Shown one piece after another: positions 11,138 through 50,945 of a stretch of DNA of 64,000 bases (its first letter is position 1; every line of letters starts with the position of its first letter). The stretch lies in assembly GCF_036700095.1 (NCBI RefSeq), contig NZ_CP144918.1:1861001-1925000 (forward strand), read 5' to 3'. Both the position numbers and the translations under genes were made by a program. The notes below the pieces were generated by a model. It was not told where the DNA came from, did not search any database, and worked only from the letters and a program-made list of their open reading frames with translations. This DNA is from Pelagerythrobacter marensis. GTDB taxonomy: Bacteria; Pseudomonadota; Alphaproteobacteria; Sphingomonadales; Sphingomonadaceae.

Positions 11138-12541
11138 ATGAACGCGCAATCTTCCGGTTTTCTTGCCCGCGGACGGGTCGATGCCGACGACCGCCTGATC
11201 GAGGCCGACGAACCCATCGCCGGCCTTCAGCGCCAATGCGGCGGCGAGATCCCCGGGCCGCTGGCGATCCCTGCCTTGCGCAACGCGATCGGCCGGGCGC
11301 GCATGGCGGGCAGGCGCTTCGGCACCGGGTTCGAGGCGCAGGGCGACGACGAAATCGTCCGGGCGCGGGTCGAAATCTTTCCCCATACCGATCGCGGCGG
11401 CGAATGCTCGATCGGCGTTACCGACTGGCAGGTCTCGCCCGTGCCGGGGGAAAGCGACGCCCAGGCCGCGACGCGCCGTCTGGAAATCGAGCGCAATGTC
11501 GCGGAGCTGTGGGCGCGCCTCGATTCGGCGCAATGCGTTCTCGCGGTGGAAACGCAGGCGCCCGATCTCGAGCCGCTGGGCCGGCGTATGCGCGAACGGC
11601 TGGGATATCCCTGGACCGACTTCGTCGAATTGCCCGGCACGGTACACCGGCAACCGCTGCACTGGCGCCTGCTCGACGACACCCGGGTCCGGGTGCCGGA
11701 ATCGCAGCGCGAATGGAAAGTCGTGCTGGCGCCGCTCGGCCCGCAGGACCGGGGGAGCCGCGGTTTCGACTTGTTCCTGGTCGCGGATTCGGCCCCTGTC
11801 CCGGGCCGGCCCGAAAGCGGCGCGGAACCGGCCGCCCCCCCGGTGACCCGCAGGATCGGGCAGGAACTGTCGCCCGTCCTGCGCCAGCCGATCGCTCGCA
11901 TCATTGCCAATGCGGAAACGATCCGCACCCGTCTGGCCGGGCCTCTGGCGGAAGAATACAGCAACTATGCGGCGGACATTGCCGCGGCAGGGCAGCATCT
12001 GCTGGCGCTGATCGACGACCTGTCCGATCTCGAAGTCGTGGAATCGGAAGATTTCGCCACGGCGCCGGACCGGATCGATCTGGGCGACGTCGCCCGGCGC
12101 GCGGCGGGCATTCTCGCGGTTCGGGCCAGGGAACGGCACATCGAACTGGTCGCCCCGGAAGAAGGGCAATCGGTCCCGGCGATCGCGGAGTTCCGCCGGG
12201 TCCTGCAGATATTGCTCAACCTTCTGGGCAATGCGATCCGCTACGCGCCCGAAGGTTCGACCGTGCGGCTGAAGCTTTCGGCCAGGAAAGGGCGCGCGCG
12301 CGTCAGCGTGATCGACCAGGGGGCGGGCCTGTCAGCGGAGCAGCAGGCGCGCGTGTTCGAGAAGTTCGAACGCCTGGGCCGCAGCGGCGACGGCGGTTCG
12401 GGGCTGGGCCTTTACATTTCCCGCCGGCTGGCCCGCGCGATGGGGGGCGATCTTTCGGTCAAGAGCAAGCCGGGCCAGGGCGCGAGCTTCCGCCTCGACC
12501 TCCCCCTCGATCGCGCGAAAAGCGAGACGTCATCCGGCTAA
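11138..12541 (+). CDS. Histidine-kinase-like protein with intact ATPase domain but no H-box histidine
   Basis: The protein has 467 residues. Residues 1-230 form an unknown, possibly PAS-like, sensor region without membrane segments. Residues about 240-305 match a HisKA dimerisation domain, but the usual HELRTPL is replaced by PVLRQPI, so proline (about residue 246) stands where histidine is expected. The C-terminal HATPase domain looks complete: N-box LLNLLGNAIRYAPEG, G1-type DQGAGLS, F-box FEKFERLG and G2 GGSGLGLYISRRLA. This predicts ATP binding without autophosphorylation at the standard site, as in DivL-type atypical kinases. The ATG at 11138 follows the upstream stop by four bases. Confidence 0.8.
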   Translation: MNAQSSGFLARGRVDADDRLIEADEPIAGLQRQCGGEIPGPLAIPALRNAIGRARMAGRRFGTGFEAQGDDEIVRARVEIFPHTDRGGECSIGVTDWQVSPVPGESDAQAATRRLEIERNVAELWARLDSAQCVLAVETQAPDLEPLGRRMRERLGYPWTDFVELPGTVHRQPLHWRLLDDTRVRVPESQREWKVVLAPLGPQDRGSRGFDLFLVADSAPVPGRPESGAEPAAPPVTRRIGQELSPVLRQPIARIIANAETIRTRLAGPLAEEYSNYAADIAAAGQHLLALIDDLSDLEVVESEDFATAPDRIDLGDVARRAAGILAVRARERHIELVAPEEGQSVPAIAEFRRVLQILLNLLGNAIRYAPEGSTVRLKLSARKGRARVSVIDQGAGLSAEQQARVFEKFERLGRSGDGGSGLGLYISRRLARAMGGDLSVKSKPGQGASFRLDLPLDRAKSETSSG

Positions 12542-12690
12542 CGCCCTCCGAGTCCCCGCGAAGGCGGGGACCTCAGGCCATCGGCGCTGCGTTTGAAACT
12601 TCCCGAGCCCCAGCGCAGGCTGGGGCCTCAGGCCACTGGCGTGTCGCCTGTTAGCACGAGGTCCCAGCCTTCGCTGGGACTCGGAAAGGG
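12541..12690. repeat. GC-rich palindromic repeats left of the first RNA element
   Basis: Three hairpin-forming units follow one another: around 12552-12572 (GTCCCCGC/GCGGGGAC type), 12605-12625 (AGCCCCAGC with GCTGGGGC) and 12661-12680 (GTCCCAGC with GCTGGGAC). Each is followed by CTCAGG or CTCGG. They match the REP-like units around the second element and at 61375-61485. No gene is seen in this stretch. Confidence 0.8.
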
Positions 12691-12713
12691 GGCCGGGTTA
12701 TGGCGAAAATGGC

Positions 12714-12742
12714 TTGACAATTGTAACCCATTGGGTTATAGG
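12714..12742 (+). promoter_or_regulatory. Promoter with palindromic operator, first RNA element
   Basis: TTGACA (12714-12719), a 17-base spacer and TATAGG (12737-12742) make a strong sigma-70 type promoter. The spacer and -10 contain the palindrome TAACCCA-T-TGGGTTA (12724-12738). A repressor bound there would block RNA polymerase. The same arrangement recurs at 50297-50325 with matching symmetry. Confidence 0.7.
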
Positions 12743-12748
12743 AGCCCA

Positions 12749-13220
12749 GCCAGCACACTCTGGCACACAGCGACGGGGGCGGAGCGTGTACGCGTCACGT
12801 AAGTCCGCTTCGTCCAGACGGCCGGTGCCTCGGGGGGCTAGTGACCTTCAGAGAAAGCCCCCTTTGCCGGTATGCGAGGAGTTTTCGGGGGACCTGTCCC
12901 TTCCCGCCCTGCGGTGGGCCTCAACGCCGCAGAGCCAGGGACACCCCCCGACGGATACGGTGCCGGCGAGCCCTGGCCGTATCTCGCCTCGCAGCCCTCA
13001 GGGCCGAGCGGAAGGTTGCCGTAACCCCTTTCGCCGTTCGCAACGATGTTACCAAGGCAACCCTGTGACGCCCAGGTGGCAATCCTGTGATGCCCAGGCG
13101 GCACCGGCCGATTCCGTCCGCTTGCCTGTATGCCCTGGCGTAAGGTCCGCACTCGCCAGCGGATGGTGGGGTGTGTCAGTCTGCCTTTCCGTTTCTCTCC
13201 CCTCCGTTTCCCCCTTCACC
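12749..13220 (+). ncRNA. Conserved structured RNA candidate, copy 1
   Basis: About 470 bases downstream of a strong promoter, in a gene-free gap, nearly identical to 50332-50810. Between 12805 and 13125 I count only three differences from copy 2, one being a single-base deletion in a C run that shifts every reading frame; this argues against a protein product. Stems conserved in both copies are 12833-12839 with 12856-12862; 12934-12940 (GCCAGGG) with 12971-12977; 12954-12959 (GATACG) with 12978-12983, which crosses the previous pairing and so is either a pseudoknot or an alternative fold; and 13014-13025 with 13048-13062 (GGTTGCC/GGCAACC continued by GTAAC/GTTAC). An imperfect 20-base tandem unit lies at about 13062-13103. 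The exact ends are estimates. Confidence 0.6.
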
Positions 13221-13360
13221 GATCCCCAGCGCAGGCTGGGGTCTCGTGCTAACAGGCGACCCGCCAGCGGCCTGAGACCCCAGCCTGCGCTGGGGATCGG
13301 GGAGGCATCAGACGACACGCCAGCGGCCTGAGGCCCCTGCCTTCGCAGGGGCTCGGGAGG
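13220..13360. repeat. GC-rich palindromic repeats right of the first RNA element
   Basis: Three more REP-like units occur at about 13222-13245, 13276-13300 and 13333-13355, each a CCCAGC...GCTGGG or CCCCTGC...GCAGGGG palindrome next to GGCCTGAG. The first and second are in opposite orientation and can pair with each other. The first unit may end the RNA transcript, although no U-tract follows. Confidence 0.75.
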
Positions 13361-13398
13361 GGGCGTTCGCGGGGAACGAGGCGCCGCGCAAAGCGCCT

Positions 13399-50074: not shown

Positions 50075-50270
50075 CTCCGAGCCCCAGCGCAGGCTGGGGC
50101 CTCAGGCCGCTGGCGTGTCGCCGGTAACCCTCCGCGCACCCACGCAGGCGGGGACCAGGCCGCCGGCGCTATGTCCGATACCCTTCCGAGCCCCAGCGAA
50201 GGCTGGGGCCTCAGGCCGCTGGCGCTGCGCCCGATAGCACGAGGTCCCAGCCTGCGCTGGGACTCGGGAA
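50075..50270. repeat. GC-rich palindromic repeats left of the second RNA element
   Basis: REP-like units at about 50080-50101, 50128-50155 (degenerate), 50189-50210 and 50243-50262, of the same CCCAGC/GCTGGG type and followed by CTCAGGCC as around copy 1. No gene is seen between 49989 and 50972. Confidence 0.8.
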
Positions 50271-50296: not shown

Positions 50297-50325
50297 TTGA
50301 CAATTATAACCTATTGGGTTATAGG
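50297..50325 (+). promoter_or_regulatory. Promoter with palindromic operator, second RNA element
   Basis: TTGACA (50297-50302), 17 bases, TATAGG (50320-50325). The palindrome TATAACC-N5-GGTTATA (50305-50323) covers the spacer and -10. It has the same centre as in copy 1 although some arm bases differ. Confidence 0.7.
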
Positions 50326-50331
50326 AGCCCC

Positions 50332-50810
50332 GCCAGTCCACTCTGGCACACAGCGACGGGGGCGGAGCGTGTACGCGTCACGCAGGCCGCTTCGTCCAGA
50401 CGGCCGGTGCCTCGGGGGGCTAGTGACCTTCAGAGAAAGCCCCCTTTGCCGGTATGCGAGGAGTTTTCGGGGGACCTGTCCCTTTCCGCCCTGCGGTGGG
50501 CCTCAACGCCGCAGAGCCAGGGACACCCCCGACGGATACGGTGCCGGCGAGCCCTGGCCGTATCTCGCCTCGCAGCCCTCAGGGCCGAGCGAAAGGTTGC
50601 CGTAACCCCTTTCGCCGTTCGCAACGATGTTACCAAGGCAACCCTGTGACGCCCAGGTGGCAATCCTGTGATGCCCAGGCGGCACCGGCCGATTCCGTCC
50701 GCTTGCCTTCATGCCCCGGCGCAAGGTCCGCATTCGCCAGCGGATGGTGGGGTGTGCCTGCTTGCCTGCTTTTCCGTTTCTCTCCCCCCTCCGTTTCCCC
50801 CCCTCTCCGA
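50332..50810 (+). ncRNA. Conserved structured RNA candidate, copy 2
   Basis: Second copy of the element at 12749-13220, in the same orientation. The stems of copy 1 are kept, for example GCCAGGG at 50516-50522 and GGTTGCC/GGCAACC at 50595-50601 with 50637-50643. Compared with copy 1 the C run after 50524 is one base shorter, so open frames spanning that point do not correspond. Divergence is concentrated in the first 60 bases and the last 100. The ends are estimates. Confidence 0.6.
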
Positions 50811-50945
50811 TCCCCAGCGCAGGCTGGGGTCTCGTGCTAGCAGGCGACACGCCAGCGGCCTGAGGCCCCTGCCTTCGCAGGGGCTCGGGAAGGTATCAGA
50901 CGCAGCGCCAGCGGCCTGAGGCCCCAGCCTGCGCTGGGGCTCGGG
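50808..50945. repeat. GC-rich palindromic repeats right of the second RNA element
   Basis: Units at about 50811-50832, 50863-50886 and 50919-50941, identical in type and order to those right of copy 1. The last ends 28 bases before the stop of the siroheme gene. Confidence 0.75.

Follow-up and report, generated by a model that had tools for sequence, protein, structure and literature searches.

Functions that are still poorly understood characterize several large structured RNAs of bacteria, among them ROOL, GOLLD and OLE. ROOL reaches an abundance equal to that of 16S rRNA although one strain can do without it, GOLLD becomes more abundant during lysis and combines a conserved 3' region with a variable 5' region, and both form RNA cages (PMC12286853). 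For gene transfer agents (GTAs), repression by proteins of the XRE family is described in Caulobacter, where RogA and CdxB control both activation of the GTA and lysis (PMC13236601).

The DNA analysed here is a window of 64,000 nucleotides from the chromosome of Pelagerythrobacter marensis (NZ_CP144918.1, positions 1,861,001 to 1,925,000). It carries two copies of an element that resembles ROOL and GOLLD in appearing to encode a large ornate RNA of unknown function, with a constant 3' element and, to judge from its operator, a control linked to lysis. It differs from them in having no Rfam match, in being chromosomal and multi-copy, and in possessing its own promoter with a shared operator. 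ROOL and GOLLD are encoded by phages or prophages, whereas the copies described below lie in chromosomes, and neither of the families A and B had a match in 50,697 phage records. Like OLE RNA the element is large and extensively folded, but it has no Rfam match and differs in size, hosts and control. The likeness to the Caulobacter system is at the level of the XRE family: the operator of an XRE gene also precedes a GTA holin gene here, while PMC13236601 mentions no RNA under the terms searched. Inverted REP-like palindromes flank each copy in the source species, as in REPIN, BIME and MITE repeats; in contrast to these, the RNA gene is not a REP, its 5' flank is inconstant elsewhere and the usual Y1-type transposase was not found in the source genome.

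An earlier note on this DNA had reported two copies with a common promoter, a palindromic operator and a nearly identical body. The description holds: 12714-13220 and 50297-50810 differ in 30 of 516 aligned columns, and the palindrome AACCCATTGGGTT spans the promoter spacer and the -10 of copy 1 (Table 1). The alignment also bears out that only three differences occur from 12805 to 13125. Within 12808-13125 they are exactly C12903T, deletion of a C at 12944 and G13011A, and three further differences lie at 12800-12804, so that 12805 was the right place to start the count. This similarity is far above chance, since the genome holds 11 near-full copies of the same element, hereafter family A, with 93-100% identity (BLAST); to speak of multiple copies on the strength of two was right but understated.

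The RNA gene is flanked in 11/11 copies by one inverted pair of REP-like 31-mers with few changes, placed about 60 bp upstream and 495-553 bp downstream of the promoter, and the unit in the source species is therefore REP-RNA-REP. Sequence variants recur in differing combinations among the copies of the genome, a shuffling that is read as gene conversion; the family seemingly evolves in concert. In the window, small arrays of REP-like palindromes are found on either side of the RNA gene (12541-13378), and this entire block is absent from congeners.

Table 1. Position of the promoter, operator, predicted RNA and flanking repeats of the two window copies.
Feature	Position	Strand	Support
Copy 1 left REP-like palindrome, inverted partner of 13219-13249	12654..12684	+	Same pair in 11/11 copies
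Copy 1 promoter, -35 TTGACA (12714-12719), -10 TATAGG (12737-12742), 17-nt spacer	12714..12742	+	Sequence; kept in other species
Copy 1 operator AACCCATTGGGTTA, covering spacer and -10	12725..12738	+	Operator pattern search
Copy 1 RNA body, predicted ends	12749..13165	+	Conservation across copies and species
5' hairpin 12749-12753/12760-12764	12749..12764	+	One C-G/U-A double change in 10/21 rows
Outer closing helix, 5' side; partner 13113-13117 and 13119-13122	12769..12777	+	96.3% paired
Long-range helix GGCCGGUGCC, 5' side; partner 13100-13109	12820..12829	+	97.1% paired, two double-change pairs; present in B and C as well
Variable hairpin arm with conserved loop GGNCCUCAACGCC	12881..12951	+	Pairing retained while the stem sequence is replaced
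Hairpin with conserved loop GCGAGCCCUGG	12954..12983	+	Compensatory changes inside the genus
Hairpin 13008-13015/13027-13034	13008..13034	+	Four double-change pairs, 91.1% paired
Two tandem small CCUG/CAGG hairpins	13062..13098	+	Single unit in other genera; second hairpin with one double change in 1/21 rows
3' element: hairpin 13146-13150/13159-13163, possible GGCG/CGCC pseudoknot 13137-13140/13154-13157	13137..13163	+	Hairpin covaries; pseudoknot pairs invariant
Copy 1 right REP-like palindrome	13219..13249	+	Same pair in 11/11 copies
Copy 2 left REP-like palindrome	50237..50267	+	Same pair in 11/11 copies
Copy 2 promoter; operator AACCTATTGGGTTA at 50308-50321	50297..50325	+	Sequence and operator pattern search
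Copy 2 RNA body, predicted ends	50332..50746	+	Sequence comparison
Copy 2 right REP-like palindrome	50807..50837	+	Same pair in 11/11 copies

The C missing at 12944 breaks a shared frame, as had been stated. Over the 11 copies the same segment measures 356-360 nt, its lengths fall in all three classes modulo 3, and no reading frame is thus common to them. That the element is not an RNA at all, being a protein gene or a repeat that functions as DNA, draws on the long chance frames present in the G+C-rich DNA of the window and on the resemblance of the copies to intergenic repeats; it is hardly credible in view of the one-base indels between copies, the compensated pairs and rebuilt stem detailed below, and a directional promoter whose sequence is kept alongside the body in other species.

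For the covariation analysis, 21 copies belonging to three genus labels were aligned with MAFFT and compared with a structure of 45 pairs. These are paired in 96.8% of cases, against 36-46% when the partners are slid, a percentage that is partly built in since the structure was derived from the same sequences. Ten of the 45 pairs are changed on both sides (0-1 when slid), a number reached by 3 of 500 shuffles, and the doubly changed cells amount to 63 (0-4 when slid; 21.8 +/- 6.6 when shuffled, none of 500 reaching 63), although related alignment rows may outscore shuffles even without structure. Further pair types number 18 versus 22.0 in the shuffled alignments, below all shuffles. The stronger evidence for the fold lies in the double changes and in the slid controls. 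The + strand also folds better than its shuffles (z -3.61, 0/100 as good), versus z -1.73 and 6/100 for the - strand.

Most telling as a sign of RNA structure is an arm of 57-91 nt that two constant boxes enclose. The stem of this arm is wholly different between species groups, and between sets of copies within G005, while every version yields a long hairpin whose loop is always GGNCCUCAACGCC. The arm is absent from many Croceibacterium copies. The helices supported are the 5' hairpin, the nested pairings 12769-12777/13113-13122 and 12820-12829/13100-13109, the hairpins 13008-13034 and 13084-13098, and the 3' hairpin 13146-13163; the alignment supports two nested long-range helices as closing the molecule. 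Both the GGCG/CGCC pseudoknot of the 3' element and a GCCCU/AGGGC loop contact consist of invariant pairs and are putative. The helix set differs from that first proposed. The pseudoknot of 12934-12940/12971-12977 crossing 12954-12959/12978-12983, whose two helices are formed in 56.5% and 68.0% of cells, is not conserved. The long hairpin 13014-13020/13056-13062 pairs in all 10 rows of Pelagerythrobacter and falls in a region absent from other genera, the remaining 11 of the 21 rows being gapped there. Neither feature is conserved in other genera. A covariance model of the 5' domain (R1) was built on a local fold that is no longer favoured. With 10/45 pairs covarying and one arm replaced while its pairing is kept, the proposal of a structured RNA stands, and family A is almost certainly one.

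At the gathering cut-off of each family, the 4227 models of Rfam 15 detect two tRNAs in the window and nothing else, and none reaches this level at 11 loci of families A, B and C, distant members of A included. Relaxed searches (E up to 10 or 1) gave chance-like matches outside the RNA, or matches to eukaryotic miRNA models. A description of the RNA or of its operator was not found in the openly licensed literature searched. The class is called categorically new by relationship because no Rfam family covers the RNA and no description of it was found in this literature; its working mode may be of a known kind. The first reading of the sequence, as an undescribed large regulatory RNA, is supported, and none of three checks that might have refuted it does so: the copies have no common frame, their stems covary and no Rfam family matches them.

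It is rare to find a large structured RNA of bacteria that has no known relative. Here two further families of longer RNA-like sequences, B (L095, L096, L104 and others) and C (L100, L102, L114, L117 and L118), were located in Pelagerythrobacter via the operator. They share with A the promoter, the operator, the closing helix, which reads GGCCGGUGC/GCACCGGCC in B and GGCCGGCGC/GCGCCGGCC in C, and the 3' element, features that suggest kinship. This held at 10/10 loci of B and 4/4 of C tested, the B set consisting of 10 of 13 loci after exclusion of L105, L106 and L113, which are close to contig ends. B and C likewise possess a 5' hairpin that carries a CCUCA loop. In more distant genera the 3' expression matches at 6 of 12 loci and the stem at 9. 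The B model finds both C copies of G004 (E 3.2e-6), while the A model of the 3' domain (R2) reaches only E 0.09 at L117 (C) and E 0.5 at L095 (B), with no match at the other B and C loci. Predicted lengths are about 320-430 nt for A, 500 for C and 560 for B. The best explanation is that A, B and C form a superfamily of large structured RNAs, for which the fold statistics were computed on A.

The 3' expression matches precisely the 11 A copies and nothing else in 382,022 strand-bases. The 3' 18-mer TCCGGGYTCGCCGCCGGA occurs in 15/396 genomes of the order (0 for the reversed control). Among 13 further chromosomal sites of the motif, seven have a TTGAC promoter and operator 404-623 bp upstream, three lack them and three are cut by contig ends, which gives an upstream operator in 7 of the 10 assessable sites. 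The sites in G010, G605 and G064, with no operator and in two of the three cases no preceding GGCG, were attributed to chance, as were five viral contigs carrying the 18-mer (operator in 0/5). The source genome contains about 16 genes: 11 of A, two of B, two of C and one at C1:1247585. This last one (L288, G000) was found only through the 3' motif, and its operator is one base nearer to the -35.

The operator AACC-N5-GGTT (pattern AACCNNWTNGGTTA) has 139 matches in 12 genomes versus 4 for the reversed pattern, counting both strands and hence palindromic sites twice. Combined with TTGAC at promoter distance, it is present in 18/296 genomes of the order (control 0). In 10 of 12 focal genomes it is located where the gene for an XRE protein of 190 aa starts. 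Among 19 further orthologues it is exact in 11, one base off by eye in 5 and absent in 3; no operator precedes the XRE gene in G378, a genome rich in the RNA (10 sites of the 3' motif), in G043 or in G010. The XRE gene was found in 20 of 21 family genomes sampled. Its product has a helix-turn-helix of the Cro/C1 type (HTH_3 in 9/9 members, Pfam); an S24-like carboxyl-terminal tail was considered and dropped, no Pfam S24 match being obtained at E up to 1.

A GTA holin gene (PF11351) occurs in 9 of the 12 genomes and is preceded by the operator, about 50 bp upstream of its start, in 8 of the 9. By coordinates, the XRE gene is approximately 6-9 kb from the holin gene in G000, G003, G004, G005 and G006. 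The operator is also found, each time in some genomes, before clpB, surE, ftsK and a nuoH-like gene; one protein each of ClpB, SurE, FtsK and holin was checked by Pfam, the remaining ones and nuoH being named by eye. RNA genes, XRE gene and holin gene are very probably under shared control, and the XRE protein is likely to be the repressor that would bind the operator. The simplest reading is that of one autoregulated XRE repressor whose regulon would comprise stress and lysis genes together with the RNA genes. That the RNA is controlled by a repressor, proposed initially from the promoter palindrome, thereby gains strong indirect support from an operator common to the XRE and GTA holin genes in many genomes. 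Three genomes (G190, G241 and G345) contain the RNA and have no holin match, which counts against a strict link to the GTA.

Two minor features accompany these genes. Upstream of most of the XRE genes shown and of several of the holin genes (L101, L103, L111, L194-L201 and L231-L246), a box TGTAGGAAA, or its complement TTTCCTACA, adjoins the operator; the box was not seen at RNA promoters; it is perhaps a second control site. Near a GTA holin gene, L202 carries on the - strand (129-485) what we take to be a small endonuclease-like gene of the DUF559 type.

Family A has BLAST matches in 5 of 7 genomes of the genus: 11 in the source genome (G000), 1 in G001, 2 in G004, 12 in G005, several of which are partial and at contig ends, and 4 in G006. 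None was obtained in G002 or G003, so that copy number ranges from 0 to 12 across the seven congeners, nor in 91 genomes outside the genus. The R2 covariance model has matches in 12 of 397 family genomes, of which 10 were retained: those of G420 (L075) and G281 (L076), at E 0.005-0.006, were coding-like DNA by eye with no promoter and were dropped. G190 and G241 have at least seven matches each. Two loci of G241, L142 and L143, have a span from operator to 3' element of 246 and 283 nt, compared with 327-377 in most relatives outside the genus, and are either deletion derivatives or a short form of family A. The B/C model (R3) has matches in 7/397 genomes. No plasmid or phage gave a BLAST match to A or B. 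Two viral contigs with a family-A word are matched by R2 over 19 nt only (E 0.26) and are ascribed to chance; another weak viral-contig match, L192 (16.9 bits, E 0.013), was set aside.

The locus L009 has the same neighbours in G001, G004, G005 and G006, which indicates an ancestral position for one locus. A single copy in G006 is surrounded by the flank found upstream of L002 and the one found downstream of L004, so that copies mark points of chromosome rearrangement. The site of copy 1, the one used for the empty-site comparison, lies between presumed sensor-kinase-like and citrate synthase genes and holds no RNA in 6/6 congeners. A 50-bp relic of the RNA (L025, G006:C1:1588647-1588696) sits at the orthologue of the flank upstream of L007 and indicates that a copy was lost there. 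Family-A copies are thus both gained and lost.

Such turnover is what a selfish non-coding mobile element would display, with an RNA that serves the element's own spread, a host operator that only times expression and a copy number that reflects transposition, not dosage. The cassette organization of 11/11 copies in the source genome, the site of copy 1 empty in all six congeners, the span of 0 to 12 copies, the relic in G006 and the patchy spread among genomes are all consistent with it. This explanation is nonetheless rather unlikely. One locus is common to five species, no plasmid or phage matched A or B, and the terminal inverted repeats expected of a MITE- or REPIN-like element, present in 11/11 copies of the source species, are not constant in relatives, where the REP pair varies at the 5' side of the RNA gene. 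Mobility driven by a RAYT was rejected: the Y1-type transposase (PF01797) was not found in G000 and was present in one of nine genomes (G001).

The explanation preferred here is a repressor-controlled, multi-copy, trans-acting large RNA of a stress and GTA-lysis programme, which as a whole is judged about equally likely to be right or wrong. The window bodies 12749-13165 and 50332-50746 would be two of about 16 genes of one RNA superfamily, each with its own strong promoter of the sigma-70 type. A conserved and probably autoregulated XRE-family repressor would silence them via the operator over spacer and -10, and derepression would also open the GTA holin gene and the stress genes clpB, surE and ftsK. 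With about 16 near-consensus promoters under one repressor, the RNA would be silent in growth and produced in a burst once derepressed. It is predicted to fold around the long-range closing helix with its conserved loops exposed. Constant loops on replaceable stems suggest recognition through the loops, the stems acting as struts. The RNA might then act in trans as a structural or sequestering RNA within the stress and lysis programme. This job is the first choice among functions, tentatively held and, as to molecular role, a guess by analogy. The regulon pattern suggests that these large RNAs form a new bacterial class, which would be made in stress bursts. Against the preferred explanation counts a patchy family, A being found in 10/397 genomes and the B/C model matching in 7/397.

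Recognition through loops could also mean base pairing. Conserved loops such as CCUCAAC might pair with messenger ribosome-binding sites, many copies raising the dose, and both the loop GGNCCUCAACGCC kept on changing stems and the CCUCA loop that recurs in B and C agree with a pairing regulator. Such a role seems improbable for this RNA, whose size and degree of structure go far beyond those of the usual pairing RNAs and whose arm is absent from many Croceibacterium copies. Taken to its limit, the structural or sequestering reading would make the RNA superfamily one of the chief products of an XRE regulon of phage-like kind in Sphingomonadaceae: strong and nearly identical promoters, at least a dozen of them, would fire with the GTA holin, the RNA would flood the lysing or stressed cell and assemble or sequester something for GTA release, and the cassette would spread to new chromosomal sites, perhaps via the GTA itself. 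This version is speculative and doubtful.

The system offers defined handles for tests: an operator, a candidate repressor, and genomes with one (G001) or two (G004) detected family-A copies. The genes that share the operator indicate the readouts, namely lysis, GTA release and stress survival. Copies at rearrangement points, seemingly evolving in concert, would illustrate the behaviour of bacterial RNA genes that form a multi-copy family.

The operator also leads to other sequences in G116, which has nine promoter-operator matches. None of the eight retrieved matches the 3' expression, several carry another box, and they are not claimed as members of A, B or C. In L205, L207, L208, L210 and L211 a box like AAATTCGCTTACTTGTTCATCTTCG stands downstream of the promoter-operator instead of the RNA, and is possibly another element or a leader. 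In L204, L206 and L209, which by the 3' expression belong to none of the three families, the operator is followed by sequence that is alike in all three and has a box of the GCGCCGGA type; these loci may represent a fourth RNA family.
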